From: Euzebya rosea
GTDB taxonomy: Bacteria; Actinomycetota; Nitriliruptoria; Euzebyales; Euzebyaceae
Direction of reading: 5' to 3'
Assembly (NCBI RefSeq): GCF_003073135.1
Contig: NZ_PGDQ01000019.1
Location: 1 to 64,000, forward strand
DNA: 64,000 nucleotides
Positions 10,829 through 16,654 of the stretch are shown here, one piece after another. How positions within the stretch are numbered: the stretch's first letter is position 1; the number at the start of each line of letters is the position of its first letter. A program made the translations under genes and the position numbers. The notes below the pieces were generated by a model. That model was not told the origin of the DNA and did no database searches. It was given only the letters and a program-made list of their open reading frames with translations.

Positions 10829-11965
10829 TCAGGGCGTGACGTCATCGGTGGCCCAGCCGAGCTGGGAGCCGTCCACAAGCAGCACGCCATCGCACCGTTC
10901 CACCTCACGGCACACCGGCGTGACGCGGCTGCGCAGCTTCACGGTGCCGCTCAGGTGCACCCGCCCGTCCTCGACGGTGTGGCGCACGCCGTCCTCGCCG
11001 CGGTCGGCCAGGACGGCCGTGACCGCGGCGCTGATCTCCTCGTCGTCGCGAACCAGCACCCGCAACATGTCGGATCGGGTGACGATGCCGACGACCCTCG
11101 CGCCGTCCATGACGACCAGCCGGGCCACGTCGCGGGTGGCCATGAGCGTGGCGGCCTGCCGCACGCTGGTGTCGGCCTCCGTCGTGACCGCAGGCTTGCT
11201 GCAGGCCTCGCCGGCGTTGCGCGCCGACCACCGCTTCCACGCACGGTGGGCGGCCGGGCCGAGCCCCAGGCGTTCGTCGGCGACGCGATCCAGCAGGTCG
11301 CGTTCCGACAGCACGCCGATCACCTGGTTGCGGGCGTCGACGACCGGCACCCCACCGTGTCCCGCGGCGAGCAGGACGCCGGCGGCATCACGCAGCGATT
11401 CGCCCTCGGACACGACGACGAGCTCGGGGCTCATGACGTCGCGGACGGTCAGCGCAGCGCGGCTGGGGTCGGACTGGAGCGGCCGGTCGAGGTCGTAGAC
11501 GTCCTCGACGAGCTCGCGTGCCAGGTGCCGCACCAGGCGGATGGCCGACGCCCGGGCGGTATCGCTGAGGTAGGTGTCCACCGCGTCCCCGATCGGGCCC
11601 AGCGGTGGCTCGTAGTACCCCACGAGGGACAGCTCGCAGCGCCCGTTGCCGAGGGTCAGCAGCTCGATGACGCCGTCGAAGGTGGGGAACAGGTGGGGGG
11701 CTGGATCAGCCCGCCAGCGCACCGGGATGCGGAGGACGTCCTCGCCCTCCACGCCCTGGTCGATGTGCACGCGGACACGCTTGTGGACGTCGACCCCGCC
11801 CCGGTTGCTGCGCAGCGTCATCAGCACGCTGCCGTCGCCGTCGGGCTGGGTGACGTCGTCACCCGCGGCCTGCTGGAGAAGCTCGGCGGTCCTCGTCATC
11901 AGCGCGTCCCGGAAACGTTTGGGTTCTCCGAAGATCTCGTGGCTCGTGGCGAGTGTGCGACGCAC
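10829..11965 (-). CDS. CBS-pair and BON domain protein of the Kai cluster
   Basis: 378 residues. The first 165 resemble an SRPBCC-like lipid/ligand-binding fold, but this match is weak. Two CBS domains follow (about 173-228, with VRDVMSPELVVV and VIGVLSERDLL, and 250-306, with VVGIVTRSDML), then a BON domain (about 308-367, DGVRHTVEDGRVHLSGTV). CBS pairs usually sense adenine nucleotides; BON domains bind membranes or ligands. The GTG at 11965 has a very strong SD, GGAGGTGAT, 5 nt away. It follows kaiC on the same strand after a 202-bp gap filled by the 7-bp repeat array. A role in reading ATP state for the Kai system is conceivable but untested. Confidence 0.82.
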   Translation of the reverse strand: MRRTLATSHEIFGEPKRFRDALMTRTAELLQQAAGDDVTQPDGDGSVLMTLRSNRGGVDVHKRVRVHIDQGVEGEDVLRIPVRWRADPAPHLFPTFDGVIELLTLGNGRCELSLVGYYEPPLGPIGDAVDTYLSDTARASAIRLVRHLARELVEDVYDLDRPLQSDPSRAALTVRDVMSPELVVVSEGESLRDAAGVLLAAGHGGVPVVDARNQVIGVLSERDLLDRVADERLGLGPAAHRAWKRWSARNAGEACSKPAVTTEADTSVRQAATLMATRDVARLVVMDGARVVGIVTRSDMLRVLVRDDEEISAAVTAVLADRGEDGVRHTVEDGRVHLSGTVKLRSRVTPVCREVERCDGVLLVDGSQLGWATDDVTP

Positions 11966-12063
11966 GGGCGATCACCTCCATGTCGGCAGGTGTCGATCGT
12001 GCACGGTTCGGGCCCGCCGGTCAGGGGCCGAAGGTCCCGCTGCCGCAGGGCCCCCCGTCGACC

Positions 12064-12161
12064 GCGACCCGCGACCCGCGACCCGCGACCCGCGACCCGC
12101 GACCCGCGACCCGCGACCCGCGACCCGCGACCCGCGACCCGCGACCCGCGACCCGCGACCC
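12064..12161. repeat. 14 perfect tandem copies of a 7-bp unit (GCGACCC)
   Basis: The array runs for 98 bp without a mismatch. It begins in the leader side of the CBS-BON gene and ends 6 bp before the kaiC stop codon (12168-12170). The unit is not a multiple of three, but the array is outside both genes, so copy-number change would alter spacing or RNA structure rather than a reading frame. The GGGTCGC strand is the sense strand of the kai transcript. Slippage or phase variation is possible. There are no spacers, so it is not a CRISPR. Confidence 0.97.
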
Positions 12162-12167
12162 GAAAAT

Positions 12168-13661
12168 CTACTCGGAGAACAACCCTCGGAGGCGGTCCTC
12201 GTCCTGGCCCACGCGGACCGGGGTGCCGCCGAGGATGCCCTCGACGAAGCGGAACGGCATCCCGATGTTCATGCCCTTGCCGTCGATGACGACCTCGCGG
12301 ATCTCCTTGTCGTGGGCCGATCCACGCATCTTCAGCACCGTGAGGCCGCGCTTGATCTCGCCGTACACCTCCACGTACCGCAGCAGGATGATGGAGTCAG
12401 TCAGGGTGGAGATGTGGGACACCGTGATGGAGTCGCCACCAAGCAGGGTCGGCGTCGTCGCGGTCATGATCCCGGTGATCTGGCGCTCCTTCAGGATCGC
12501 CGTCACTCCCATCATGTACTGGCGGAACGCACGTGGGCTGGCGATGTGCTCCATCGCCGACAGGCTGTCCAGGGCCACACGGTCCGGCTCGAACTCGTCG
12601 ATCTGTCGCTTCATGACCAGCAGGTGGTCCTCGAGGGACCGCACCTCCGGGTACTCACACACCACCCGGAGCTGCCCGGCCTCCTCGGCGCCCTGGAAGT
12701 CGAAGCCCCACCCGTGGGCGTTGCGGAACAGCTGCTCGCGGCTCTCCTCGTAGCCGAACAGCAGCGCGCGTTCTCCCTGCGCCACACCACCGGCCAGGAA
12801 CGTCGTCGCGGTGAGGGTCTTGCCGGTGCCGGTCGCGCCGGACACCAGGATGACGGAGTCCCGCAGGACCCCCCCGCCGCACATCTCGTCCAGCACCGGA
12901 TCGCCGCTCGGGACGCGTTCGGTGGTGGAGGACTCCTGGCGGGTCTGGCCCGTCACCGGGATCACGACCATGCCCTGCTCGGGGTCGATGGTGAACGGGA
13001 ACTCGCCCTTGCGGTGGGTGGTGCCCCTGAACTTCAGGATCTGGATGGTTCGGCGGACCTCCTCCTGGCGGAGCACGTGGCGAAGTACGAGCACGTCGTC
13101 GGCCACGAACTGCTCGACCCCGAAGCGCGAGATGGCACCGTACTCGTCGTCACGCTCGGCGGTGACCATGCACGTGACCCCCATCCGGGAGAGCCCCTTC
13201 GCCAGGCGGTGCAGCTCGCGACGGACCGAGGAGGTGTCGTCGAACTCGGCGAAGACCGCGCCGATGGAGTCCAGCACGATGCGGGTGGCGCCCGTTCGCC
13301 GCACGGCATCCTCGATGCGGGCCATCAGCGCCGCGAAGTCGTACTCGCCGACGATCGTCGTCCCGACCGTGGTCTGCATGGACGCGTCGATGAACGTCCA
13401 CTTGCCCTGCTCCGTCCAGCCGTCGATGTCCCAGCCGAAGCTGGACAGGTTGCGGGCGATGTCCACCGGTGGTTCCTCGAACGTCACGAAGACGCCCGCG
13501 GCGTCGTCCTCGGTGATCGCCGCGACCAGGTACTGGCCGGCCATCACGGTCTTCCCGGAACCCGCGGATCCCGACACCATGGTGGTGCGGCCCTTCGGCA
13601 GCCCCCCATGGGATATCTGGTCCAGCCCCGCGATGCCGGTGGTGGTCTTCTCGATGGTCAT
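12168..13661 (-). CDS. kaiC: KaiC-type circadian clock ATPase/kinase
   Basis: 497 residues, two tandem RecA-like domains. CI has Walker A GSAGSGKT (31-38) and the Glu pair E62-E63; CII has GATGTGKT (275-282) and E305-E306. In CII the segment SITVSHISTLTDS keeps residues matching the cyanobacterial KaiC phosphosites: Thr413 (T426), Ser418 (S431) and Thr419 (T432). GEIKRGLTVLKMRGSAHDK also matches KaiC closely. The C-terminal tail after residue 480 is about 20 residues shorter than in Synechococcus KaiC, where it forms the A-loop and KaiA-binding peptide. The ATG overlaps the kaiB stop (ATGA). This is a full double-domain KaiC, not a single-domain RadA/GvpD-like protein. Confidence 0.93.
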   Translation of the reverse strand: MTIEKTTTGIAGLDQISHGGLPKGRTTMVSGSAGSGKTVMAGQYLVAAITEDDAAGVFVTFEEPPVDIARNLSSFGWDIDGWTEQGKWTFIDASMQTTVGTTIVGEYDFAALMARIEDAVRRTGATRIVLDSIGAVFAEFDDTSSVRRELHRLAKGLSRMGVTCMVTAERDDEYGAISRFGVEQFVADDVLVLRHVLRQEEVRRTIQILKFRGTTHRKGEFPFTIDPEQGMVVIPVTGQTRQESSTTERVPSGDPVLDEMCGGGVLRDSVILVSGATGTGKTLTATTFLAGGVAQGERALLFGYEESREQLFRNAHGWGFDFQGAEEAGQLRVVCEYPEVRSLEDHLLVMKRQIDEFEPDRVALDSLSAMEHIASPRAFRQYMMGVTAILKERQITGIMTATTPTLLGGDSITVSHISTLTDSIILLRYVEVYGEIKRGLTVLKMRGSAHDKEIREVVIDGKGMNIGMPFRFVEGILGGTPVRVGQDEDRLRGLFSE

Positions 13662-13969
13662 GATGGGTGTGGTCCTCTGTGTGCCTGAGGTGGCAAGGGG
13701 ATGAGCAGCAGTTCGTGTGCCAGCACGTCGGCGGATCGTGGCATGCCGATGATCCGTCGACGGGGCAGGGGGGCGAGCAGGTCGTAGGTGGGCGTGGTGA
13801 TCACGCCCGCGGCATCGGCCAGGGCCGGTTCGCTGGTGACGTCGATGACGGTGATCTCGGCGTCGCCCCCGAAGTGGGTGTCAGCGACGTCCCGGAGCAG
13901 GGCGACGGCTCGGGAGGCGTGGTTCGACCCGCCCACGACATAGACGTTGACTCGGAAGCGAAGTGGCAC
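13658..13969 (-). CDS. kaiB: KaiB-domain protein
   Basis: 103 residues, GTG start. It aligns along its length with cyanobacterial KaiB: VYVVGGSNHASRAVALL matches the first strand and helix, TVIDVTSEPALAD the second, and ITTPTYDLLAPLPRRRIIG the diagnostic TPTL...PLPxRRIIG segment. In cyanobacteria KaiB binds phosphorylated KaiC, sequesters KaiA and changes fold. The gene overlaps kaiC by 4 bp and starts 6 bp after the response-regulator stop, so the three are almost certainly co-translated. A short Pro/His-rich tail follows the KaiB core. Confidence 0.92.
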   Translation of the reverse strand: MPLRFRVNVYVVGGSNHASRAVALLRDVADTHFGGDAEITVIDVTSEPALADAAGVITTPTYDLLAPLPRRRIIGMPRSADVLAHELLLIPLPPQAHRGPHPS

Positions 13970-13975
13970 CGGACG

Positions 13976-14779
13976 TCACCGCTGCCCGCGGTTGTTGGCG
14001 TGCAGCCGGTAGTGCAGTGCGAGGTAGCCGACAACCTCCAGCAGCACCATCCGGCCTTCCTCCGCCAACGCCGACAACCGTTCGGGGTGCACACGGTCGC
14101 TGAGGCGGTGGAGGGCGCTGATGTGGACGTCGATGACGTCACGTGGCACGGCGTTGAGGATCCCGAACTCGCGGCCCAGGGTCTTCATCGCGGGGACCGG
14201 ACGGCGTCCGTCGGCGTAGGCAAGGGCTTCCACGGTTGACTCCAGCAGCTCGACGTAGCGGTCCACCAGCAGGCCGTACACCTCGGGCAGGGCCGTCTTC
14301 AGGCGCTGGTCACCGAGCATCTCCAGCGTGATCGGCGTCGCCGACGCCAGGATGTCGTCGCCGATCTCCGGCTCGCCGATCTCCGCGTACTCCAGGGACA
14401 CCGACAGGGCCCGTGCCACCGCGTGGTTGCGATGCCGCTGGCGGACGATGGCCGCCTCCACCCGAGGGGGCAGCCCCTCGATGTCGGACTTGAGCACGAA
14501 GTCCTGTGCTCCGGCCTCGATGGCCTGCGGCCCGATCGCAGGGTCCTCGTTGCCGGTCAGCACGACGACCGGGATCTGGGGTGCCTGCGCCAGCAGCTGT
14601 GCGAGCGTCTCGAAGCCCTCCGAGTCGGGCAACCCGAGGTCCAGCAGCACGACGTCGACGCCCTCGAGTCCGACGAGCGCCTTCGCGACGCTCCTGACGT
14701 GCTGGACGTCGAACGTCGGGAACTGGGCGGTCACGAAGGCGGCGTCGTCGGCTTCGTCCTCGACGAGGAGCATCTTCAT
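13976..14779 (-). CDS. response regulator with KaiA-like C-terminal domain
   Basis: 267 residues from the ATG at 14779, chosen because AAGGAG lies 9 nt upstream. The receiver domain (1-115) is complete: acidic VEDE at 7-10, phosphoacceptor Asp47 in LLDLGLP, Thr75 in VLTG, Lys97 in FVLKSD. A helical linker leads to a C-terminal domain (about 160-260) whose motifs VIDVHISAL and EGRMVLLEVVGYLALHYR resemble the KaiA C-terminal motifs VVEIHMELM and DYRLALIDVIAHLCEMYR. The distantly similar RsbU N-terminal fold is the alternative. Cyanobacterial KaiA3 has the same receiver-plus-KaiA design. Adjacency to kaiB-kaiC supports a KaiA-like role; the homology is my by-eye judgement. Confidence 0.78.
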   Translation of the reverse strand: MKMLLVEDEADDAAFVTAQFPTFDVQHVRSVAKALVGLEGVDVVLLDLGLPDSEGFETLAQLLAQAPQIPVVVLTGNEDPAIGPQAIEAGAQDFVLKSDIEGLPPRVEAAIVRQRHRNHAVARALSVSLEYAEIGEPEIGDDILASATPITLEMLGDQRLKTALPEVYGLLVDRYVELLESTVEALAYADGRRPVPAMKTLGREFGILNAVPRDVIDVHISALHRLSDRVHPERLSALAEEGRMVLLEVVGYLALHYRLHANNRGQR

Positions 14780-14859
14780 CCAGTCTTGCTCCTTGGATCG
14801 ACGGGGCGAACGGGCCGAGCTCGCCCTTGAATGTGGTTCATGGCGAAACTCGGCCCAGA

Positions 14860-14865
14860 AGGATA
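14860..14865 (-). promoter_or_regulatory. weak candidate -10 (TATCCT) for the kai operon
   Basis: TATCCT on the minus strand, followed by a leader of about 75 nt, sits in the 124-bp gap before the response-regulator gene. No convincing -35 was seen. The upstream small gene ends at 14904 on the same strand, so read-through from there is also possible. Confidence 0.3.
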
Positions 14866-14903
14866 CCGCACCGGTTGTGCACGTACCGTAGGTGATGCTG
14901 AGC

Positions 14904-15128
14904 TCACCGTAGCAGCGCCGTCGGGTCGACGAACCGAAGGCCAAGGCGGATCAGCGCCAGGCCCAGGGCCTGCCGCAGTCCACCTGCCAACGTGGTGGAC
15001 AGGGATCGAGCGGTGCCGGCCCGACGGGCCGGCCGACGACTCGGGGGGTGCTGGCGGCGCAGCGCAGCGGCACGCGAGAGCTCCTCGCGGTGCAGCCGGG
15101 CCATCTCGCCGTGGATGTGGGGCAGCAT
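14904..15128 (-). CDS. small basic protein, function unknown
   Basis: 74 residues from the ATG at 15128, with AAAGG about 11 nt upstream. The N-terminus (HIHGEMARLHREELSRAAALRR) resembles short helical segments common in small actinobacterial proteins. A basic middle (RRPARRAGTAR) and a moderately hydrophobic C-terminal helix (about 48-66) follow, so it could be peripheral to the membrane. It lies just upstream of the response regulator, kaiB and kaiC on the same strand and may be the first or second gene of that operon. A + strand frame overlapping its start looks less convincing. Confidence 0.5.
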   Translation of the reverse strand: MLPHIHGEMARLHREELSRAAALRRQHPPSRRPARRAGTARSLSTTLAGGLRQALGLALIRLGLRFVDPTALLR

Positions 15129-15295
15129 GACTGAACAGACCTTTCGAGCAACGTGGGTCCTCGTGGACCCGGGAAGCACGCCACCGCGGGATGCGGCGGC
15201 CCGAGCCGTCGAGCGGCTCGTCTACAACGACGAGGCGTGGCCCGCCCACGGAGCTGGGGCGGGGGTCGTTGGAGCTGGAGGGGAGGGTGGGCGGC

Positions 15296-15412
15296 CTAGG
15301 CCGCGGCGCGACAGCCCGGACGGTTCGTCTGCGATCCGGCCTGATCGGTCGGTGCCGTGGTGACCACGGCCGTATCGAGCGACATCGAGGTGTCGAGGTG
15401 GGTGATACGCAT
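15296..15412 (-). CDS. candidate 38-residue peptide with a perfect Shine-Dalgarno site
   Basis: On the minus strand AAAGGAGG is followed 9 nt later by ATG (15412) and a 38-codon frame ending in TAG at 15296. The peptide starts MRITHLDTSM, is Thr-rich in its first half and ends in RPGCRAAA with a single Cys. No known family is recognised. The SD is among the strongest in the window, which argues for real translation as a leader peptide, small regulator or peptide precursor. The next 167 bp (15129-15295) hold no convincing gene before the small protein at 15128. Confidence 0.45.
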   Translation of the reverse strand: MRITHLDTSMSLDTAVVTTAPTDQAGSQTNRPGCRAAA

Positions 15413-15537
15413 TACGGGCTGCCTCCTTTCCGGTGCTCGGGGTTCGTGTAGCCGGCTGACATTGCCACGACGGTGACGGCGCTGTCAACGACCTTCCGCC
15501 AGAAAGTTCCTGCGGTCGCCTGCTGGGCCGTCCGGGG

Positions 15538-15543
15538 TAGGCT
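15538..15543 (+). promoter_or_regulatory. candidate -10 box (TAGGCT) of the histidine kinase gene
   Basis: TAGGCT lies 25 nt before the GTG at 15569, with AGGAG in between. Its flanks, GGGGTAGnnTCCCG, are shared with the candidate -10 in front of the surface-protein gene (23977), which suggests use by the same sigma factor. Confidence 0.4.
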
Positions 15544-15568
15544 CCCGACGCCCCCTCCAGGAGACGAA

Positions 15569-16654
15569 GTGACGACAGCCCCGACCGACCCACCGCCCGA
15601 CGCTGCCGCCGGCGTTGCGGGCACGGAAGTGTGGGTTCAGGCAGCGGACGCGGCCCGATCCGCGGCATTGCGAGACGCCATGCCGGAGGCGTACCGCGTG
15701 ACCCACTTCACCGCGCATGACCTGCAGGAACGCCTGGCTGACGGGCAACGCCCGACCGCGCTGCTCGTCGACGGGGAGGAGCTCGACGCACGGGCGTTCG
15801 TGGTCCACGCACCCGCGACGGCGGTGCTGGTCGTTGGCGCCTCCGACCCTGCCGCTGGCCTCGGCGATCCGGCGACCGACGCCGTGCCAGCAGGGGTCCC
15901 GGTTGCCGAGGTGGTCGCACGGCTCCAGCGGGTCGTGCAGGCTCGGCAGCTGCGACGGGAGCTGACGCGCACCACCGAGGTGCTGACCCACACGAGCCAT
16001 CAGCTGGAGCGGTTCGTGTACACGGCATCCCATGACCTCAAGGAGCCGTTGCGGGCGATAACGGGGTTCTCCAAGCTGCTGGTCACCCGCCATGCCGACC
16101 AGCTGGAGGACCAGGCCCGCACGTACCTCGACTTCGTCACCGACGGCGCGGAGCGCCTCGGGCGGATGATCGGGTCCCTCACGACGTTCTCGGTGCTCTC
16201 CCGCCACCAGGTCACGACGACCGAGGTCTCCCTCGACGCCGTCGTAGCTGACGTGCTCGAGCGGTTGGAGACCGACGGGACCGAGGTCACCGTCACCGAC
16301 CTGCCCGCTGTCCGCACGGACAAGACCCTGGTCAGCGAGGTCGCTCGGGTCCTGATCGACAACGCAGTGCGGTACCGCACCGACGACCCCGGCCACCGCG
16401 TCACGGTCACGGCGACGGTGGGCCCCGAATCGTGGACGCTGGCCGTCGCCGACACCGGCATCGGCGTGGCCCCGTCCGACCAGGACCGCATCTTCGACAT
16501 GTTCTCGAGGCTGCACACCCGCGAGGCCTACGACGGTCAGGGGATCGGGCTGGCGGTCGCCCGCATGGCCGCTGGTCGGCTCGGTGGTCGCATCCAGGTC
16601 GAGTCGCGCCCGGGGGAGGGATCGACCTTCACGGTCACCGTTCCCATCGTGTGA
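15569..16654 (+). CDS. sensor histidine kinase with degenerate N-terminal receiver
   Basis: 361 residues from the GTG at 15569, chosen because AGGAG is 5 nt upstream. Residues 20-130 follow the secondary-structure pattern of a receiver domain (VWVQAADAA, ALLVDGEELD, AVLVVGAS, then VPVAEVVARLQRVVQARQLRREL) but lack the acidic pocket and the switch Thr, so it looks like a pseudo-receiver. The kinase core has H155 in YTASHDLKEPLRAITGF, the N-box IDNAVRYR (264-270), DTGIGVAP and GQGIGLAVARM. This SHDLKEPLR class includes phytochrome-like kinases and CikA. No membrane segment is visible, so it is probably cytoplasmic. It is divergent from the kai-side genes and may be their partner kinase. Confidence 0.87.
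   Translation: MTTAPTDPPPDAAAGVAGTEVWVQAADAARSAALRDAMPEAYRVTHFTAHDLQERLADGQRPTALLVDGEELDARAFVVHAPATAVLVVGASDPAAGLGDPATDAVPAGVPVAEVVARLQRVVQARQLRRELTRTTEVLTHTSHQLERFVYTASHDLKEPLRAITGFSKLLVTRHADQLEDQARTYLDFVTDGAERLGRMIGSLTTFSVLSRHQVTTTEVSLDAVVADVLERLETDGTEVTVTDLPAVRTDKTLVSEVARVLIDNAVRYRTDDPGHRVTVTATVGPESWTLAVADTGIGVAPSDQDRIFDMFSRLHTREAYDGQGIGLAVARMAAGRLGGRIQVESRPGEGSTFTVTVPIV

Follow-up and report, generated by a model that had tools for sequence, protein, structure and literature searches.

The closest described relatives of the locus reported here are the Kai systems built around a response-regulator version of KaiA. For a long time KaiA was regarded as a cyanobacterial protein, and an earlier survey found it in cyanobacteria only (Schmelling et al. 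2017, PMC5520375). Work published in 2024 added the chimeric protein KaiA3 in a few other genera: KaiA3 and KaiB3 of Synechocystis were shown experimentally to drive phosphorylation rhythms of KaiC3, and the genera listed with KaiA3 comprise cyanobacteria together with Roseiflexus, Chloroflexus, Chloroherpeton, Rhodospirillum and Bradyrhizobium (Koebler et al. 2024, PMC11372060). The same study notes that KaiA and RsbU_N share a four-helix fold and names the KaiBC hourglass of Rhodobacter, likewise a Kai timer outside cyanobacteria. The Rhodobacter system differs in having no KaiA and in the extended C-terminus of its KaiC (a 568-aa chain, against 497 aa in the protein described below). Its structures are PDB entries 8dba and 8fwi. 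The literature searched yielded no account of KaiA3 from Actinomycetota; a cyanobacterial-type kaiABC has been mentioned in a Propionibacteriaceae bacterium (Dvornyk and Mei 2021, PMC8113500), so there is an earlier claim of a kaiA in this phylum, for a kaiA of another type.

The window analysed here is a stretch of 64,000 nucleotides from Euzebya rosea. Like the Synechocystis system, it encodes a response-regulator/KaiA chimera with an intact phosphoacceptor and a short-tailed KaiC bearing S/T phosphosites, and its genes stand in the order usual for this type of module, kaiA3-kaiB3-kaiC3, although in Synechocystis itself kaiC3 lies apart. Unlike that module, it has an actinobacterial host, a strongly derived KaiB, two operons in the genome and an adjacent divergent kinase. 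With the KaiABC systems of Synechococcus and Thermosynechococcus it has in common the KaiC domains and phosphosites, the KaiA-type four-helix C-terminal domain and the order kaiA-kaiB-kaiC. In contrast to those systems, its receiver is a true one with a phosphorylatable Asp where cyanobacterial KaiA has a pseudo-receiver, its KaiC tail is without the long KaiA-binding extension, and no SasA was found in the genome. The KaiCs nearest to that of the window (60% identity) include those of the Roseiflexus-type loci L080-L082, in which a histidine kinase gene precedes kaiA3, kaiB and kaiC.

Organization of the kai locus

The features of the locus, in window coordinates, are as follows.

10829..11965, minus strand: two-CBS-domain protein with a weak BON domain; a neighbour, without support as a member of the Kai module
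12062..12162, no strand: perfect (CCGCGAC)14.4 array just past the kaiC stop; a neighbour outside the module
12168..13661, minus strand: kaiC, two RecA-like domains (TIGR02655, NF006799)
13658..13969, minus strand: kaiB, strongly derived (PF07689, E 2.3e-12)
13976..14779, minus strand: kaiA3-like gene encoding a receiver, a linker and a KaiA-type four-helix C-terminal domain (PF00072, E 1.7e-14)
13979..14329, minus strand: the predicted KaiA-type C-terminal domain of this regulator, 117 aa (AlphaFold2, Foldseek)
15569..16654, plus strand: divergent histidine kinase, HisKA and HATPase (PF00512, E 2.2e-10; PF02518, E 1e-23)

The three minus-strand genes for the regulator, KaiB and KaiC form a tight operon. 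As the original prediction had it, the junctions are short: a gap of 6 bp separates the regulator gene from kaiB, and kaiB overlaps kaiC by 4 bp (ATGA). The regulator starts at the ATG at 14779, with AAGGAG ahead of it. That the DNA is of actinobacterial origin, also predicted, is confirmed by the presence of three WhiB genes in the assembly; among the control set, WhiB matches were obtained only in Corynebacterium.

Two parts of the cluster as first proposed did not hold. The CBS-BON protein had been counted among the Kai components; its CBS pair is solid, but the BON match (23.3) falls short of the Pfam cut-off of 27, and we rejected it as a conserved Kai partner since no relatives of it were found beside the other kaiC genes examined and the roughly 200 bp between it and kaiC include the heptamer array. 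This array, 14.4 perfect copies over 101 bp and unique in the genome, is likely a length-variable site. Two small proteins had also been placed between the regulator and the kinase, and no candidate there reaches a coding score: three small ORFs lie in the interval, two with non-coding-like codon-position G+C and one (14904-15122, minus strand) ambiguous.

The regulator and its relation to KaiA

The regulator had been predicted to carry a KaiA-like C-terminus, and several independent lines of analysis agree with this. Its receiver keeps the phosphoacceptor Asp47 (LLDLGLPDS), and D47 is invariant in the three members from the genus. Pfam finds the receiver only; the KaiA family (PF07688) gives no match to the window protein and 12.5 bits, below the gathering score of 22.2, with the paralogue from a second kai operon of the same genome (C1, described below). 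The relation to KaiA is a remote one, and searches with single sequences returned only marginal E-values for it.

Because a full-length query was swamped by ordinary receivers, we used the C-terminal domain alone. A profile of this domain, built from three proteins of the same genus only, was run on the top 80 kaiC loci from the GTDB species collection; in 65 of them it matched the gene that directly precedes kaiB-kaiC, with E-values down to 4e-29; these loci were picked by KaiC similarity, so 65/80 is no prevalence, and several of the other 15 end at contig ends. The order of genes in the window operon is that of the 65 related loci. These loci come from Chloroflexota, Cyanobacteriota, Pseudomonadota, Nitrospirota, Bacteroidota, Ignavibacteriota, Thermodesulfobacteriota, Acidobacteriota, Myxococcota, Planctomycetota, Gemmatimonadota, Spirochaetota and Calditrichota, plus an Acidimicrobiales bin.

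In a profile-profile comparison (hhalign), a 67-row profile of the family was set against the C-terminal domains of eight cyanobacterial KaiA proteins, taken from the same cyanobacterial genomes that supplied kai loci. The two aligned colinearly over 91 columns (P 1.7e-5, score 34.0); 60 column-shuffled KaiA alignments scored at most 20.2, and the reversed alignment 14.7. When 25 family members were submitted to Pfam, RsbU_N and KaiA were the two families matched by most, and in a sequence search of the PDB KaiA C-terminal domains were the best matches (E 0.007-0.015). AlphaFold2 models the full regulator as a receiver followed by a four-helix domain (pLDDT 88.8), and the isolated C-terminal domain with pLDDT 90.4 and pTM 0.83. 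Foldseek with the isolated domain placed six KaiA entries in the top 18 (5jwr, 1r5q, 5n8y, 1q6a, 1r8j and 4g86) at probabilities of 0.82-0.95 but E-values above 0.3; the full-length model retrieved mostly receivers, although KaiA 4g86 appeared at rank 28 with an alignment of 296 columns. Taken together, these sequence comparisons and predicted folds establish the C-terminal domain family as KaiA-type. With the profile match at the 65 loci and the KaiA match by profile, Pfam, PDB and fold, the window operon represents, in actinobacterial form, the KaiA3-KaiB3-KaiC3 module of the 2024 study and is not a lone oddity. The central proposal of the original prediction, a Kai-type cluster in an actinobacterium that includes a KaiA-like activator of its own, is thus supported by profile-profile alignment, Pfam, PDB sequence, predicted fold and synteny.

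The original prediction had further described Kai proteins as rarely discussed in actinobacteria. KaiB and KaiC are not especially rare there (KaiB exceeds its cut-off in 15 of 297 sampled Actinomycetota genomes), but the KaiA-like partner is: of 397 Actinomycetota genomes, only three have the KaiA-type domain with a convincing E-value, namely the window's own, the same-genus genome G002, and G343. A search for the same gene order beyond this one locus recovered it in the same-genus genome, in the Acidimicrobiales bin and at the second locus of the own genome.

Across loci L080-L159, KaiA-type domains lie upstream of kaiBC in at least a dozen phyla, a much wider range than the five non-cyanobacterial genera reported. 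Some of the open frames carrying the domain there span 540-660 codons, a length that suggests extra N-terminal domains.

KaiB, KaiC and the second kai operon

KaiC is a double-domain protein, as predicted, scoring 561.1 bits against TIGR02655 circ_KaiC (cut-off 546.25) and 651 bits against NF006799 (cut-off 408). The Walker lysines and both catalytic Glu pairs are kept, as are the phosphosites T426, S431 and T432, here T413, S418 and T419, and the C-terminal tail is short, like those of other kaiA3-linked KaiCs. The B-loop of the CI domain departs from the family: positions 115/116 are V-G in the window protein, mostly E-E in relatives and E-D in the C1 copy.

KaiB, on the other hand, is not the canonical protein it was first taken for. 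It matches the PF07689 KaiB domain at 46.9 bits (cut-off 27) and the circ_KaiB equivalog TIGR02654 at 42.6 bits, below the cut-off of 145.3. Of the 42 columns that more than 75% of 75 relatives conserve, 23 are changed in the window KaiB, which makes it the most divergent KaiB in the comparison; the worst of the 75 relatives departs at 14, the C1 paralogue at 10 and an orphan KaiB of the same genome (C8) at 5. The changes (11/18, 7/18 and 5/6 conserved columns by segment) are spread over the whole protein and include, in T. elongatus numbering, K58G, K67L, D79M, G89E and D91L. Among the 75 relatives D79 is present in 75, a basic residue at 67 in 99% and at 58 in 95%; actinobacterial KaiBs that are also very divergent, with 16-20 departures, still have D79 and the basic residues at both 58 and 67, and the C1 KaiB retains R58, K67, D79 and D91. 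The window kaiB frame is nevertheless intact and translationally coupled, with coding-like codon-position G+C (0.75/0.50/0.79). Judging from aligned sequences, we infer that these KaiB positions and KaiC positions 115/116 may be contacts in the window proteins.

Further kai loci of the genome and the genus are listed here.

L008 9015-11742 (G000:C1:209014-211741): second kaiA3-kaiB-kaiC operon of the same genome, with more regular KaiB and KaiC
L067 4356-5548 (G000:C8): purM/purF-linked locus in the same genome, orphan kaiB followed by a PAS-GGDEF gene
L068 3125-4682: purM/purF-linked locus in G001, kaiB and GGDEF
L030 1964-5883: purM/purF-linked locus in the same-genus genome G002, kaiA3-kaiB-kaiC-PAS-GGDEF
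L189 4677-5126: purM/purF-linked locus in G003, kaiB

In a KaiC tree (a quick tree with long branches) the window copy groups with the KaiCs of two genomes of the same class, G034 and G030 (SH-aLRT 94), whereas the C1 copy groups with the Acidimicrobiales KaiC (95). The two operons therefore do not look like a recent duplication, as far as KaiC phylogeny indicates. At the sister loci in G034 and G030 the order is kaiC-kaiB and no KaiA-type domain was found; these pairs (L071, L072) lie beside a convergent receiver gene and a PAS kinase whose N-terminus is receiver-like. The C1 operon is flanked by genes for a methyltransferase, a PHP-domain protein and an FHA-LuxR regulator.

The purM/purF-linked locus contains kaiB without kaiC in three of the four genus genomes, and in two of these three a PAS-GGDEF diguanylate cyclase gene adjoins it. 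In G001 and G003 no KaiC was detectable at E 1e-5, and no orthologue of the window KaiC was found there. The retention of kaiB without kaiC beside PAS-GGDEF suggests a KaiB role tied to c-di-GMP and partly independent of KaiC.

Probable kinase input and behaviour of the module

The divergent histidine kinase is present as predicted, a HisKA-HATPase protein whose best start is the GTG at 15569 after AGGAG. Its N-terminal ~130 aa have no domain match in Pfam, KaiB included, and no relatives of this N-terminus were found near the other kaiC genes examined. A kinase gene lies within 300 bp at 21 of the 65 kaiA3 loci. At the Roseiflexus-type loci a PAS kinase similar to that of the window is co-directional and ends 4-36 bp before kaiA3, whereas the window kinase is divergent and ~790 bp from the regulator; the C1 operon is without an adjacent kinase. 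In the Actinomycetota genome G343 a GAF-PHY-HisKA-HATPase bacteriophytochrome gene overlaps kaiA3 by 4 bp and runs off the contig end, and another contig ends in the first 183 phytochrome codons (PAS_2, E 3.9e-17) right after kaiB-kaiC.

L168 4370-6879 and L190 3873-6304: putative kaiB-kaiC-bacteriophytochrome-kaiA3 operon in G343, at two contig ends

No sequence overlap joins the two ends, which look like one phytochrome gene split by an assembly gap and would make G343 an actinobacterial candidate for a light-fed Kai system. The G343 phytochrome and the Roseiflexus-type kinases beside kaiA3 lend support to a kinase feeding the KaiA3 receiver, and the window kinase is the probable partner of the regulator's receiver.

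A search of the window's genome for microbial rhodopsin gave no match, and the control was equally silent. No SasA-type kinase with a KaiB-like N-terminus was found, the KaiB-family matches in the genome being three stand-alone KaiBs. A 533-aa C8 frame with a KaiB domain, considered as a SasA, was rejected because it resolves into a 112-aa KaiB followed by the PAS-GGDEF gene.

We consider it probable that the window module is a kinase-fed KaiC phosphorylation timer, either hourglass or damped. We infer binding, activation, kinase pairing and timing behaviour as follows. Homology suggests that the regulator, through its KaiA-type domain, would bind the C-terminal region of KaiC and stimulate KaiC autophosphorylation at the equivalents of S431 and T432. 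As the receiver retains a phosphorylatable aspartate, a histidine kinase, probably the divergent neighbour, could phosphorylate it and so set the strength of the KaiA3 push on KaiC. KaiB normally opposes KaiA by binding the phosphorylated KaiC ring; since residues kept by nearly all relatives are lost, binding by the window KaiB may be weakened or re-specified, and it is this altered KaiB that makes a signal-fed timer the likeliest behaviour.

The divergence across the whole of KaiB would also fit a protein that is decaying or repurposed, leaving the kinase, KaiA3 and KaiC as a phosphorylation relay without timing, and KaiB and KaiC are indeed retained independently within the genus (a KaiB persists in G001 and G003, in which no KaiC could be detected). 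We think this doubtful given the open frame, a GC3 still at 0.79 and a Pfam score well over the cut-off. Somewhat less plausible is a paralogous operon that diverged and became insulated from the second one, with joint changes in KaiB and the B-loop of KaiC that keep the two Kai sets from cross-binding. The C1 operon does have the more regular KaiB and KaiC, and where the window KaiB has lost K58 and K67, the KaiC of the same operon has correspondingly lost the acidic pair at 115/116, C1 keeping both; but the complementary charges come from alignments and not from a structure of these proteins, the argument rests on one genome, and G002 shows a partly similar loss (L58, 116R) despite having a single operon.

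A complete self-sustained circadian oscillator like Synechocystis KaiA3B3C3, with a derived KaiB that still switches fold and binds KaiC, is an improbable reading of the window operon. It has in its favour the three core genes in conserved order, the intact KaiC residues and the intact, coupled and coding-like kaiB, but KaiB is the family outlier, KaiC is without the acidic B-loop pair, and the genome yielded no KaiB-domain kinase. Because KaiB is without D79, K67 and K58, the three-protein cycle may not close; this lowers the likelihood for the window operon, and the C1 operon is the better oscillator candidate. An RsbU_N-type partner-switching role for the C-terminal domain of the regulator, with no functional relation to KaiA, is highly improbable, for although the window domain alone matches RsbU_N (E 0.13) and not KaiA, and six of the 25 family members match RsbU_N, the family is linked to kaiBC in 65 of the 80 loci, aligns colinearly with KaiA and includes a protein type that acts on KaiC in Synechocystis (PMC11372060).

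The kinase-fed timer remains our preferred reading. A more elaborate arrangement is speculative and at present unlikely: one cell with two KaiA3-KaiB-KaiC timers insulated from each other, of which one is regular and the other has a re-specified KaiB-KaiC interface, with output through the orphan KaiB and the diguanylate cyclase (c-di-GMP) and input through two-component phosphorylation of KaiA3, as with the phytochrome in the same operon of the related actinobacterium.

The Kai operon of the window is real, actinobacterial and of the KaiA3 type, and its KaiB is derived. It brings KaiA3 into Actinomycetota, and the survey extends KaiA3 to at least a dozen phyla. The true receiver of the chimera offers an obvious two-component input for Kai timers outside cyanobacteria, and light entrainment can be tested directly thanks to the apparent phytochrome-kaiA3 pair of a related genome. 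Finally, the derived KaiB together with its more regular second copy constitutes a natural experiment on which KaiB features a cycling timer needs.
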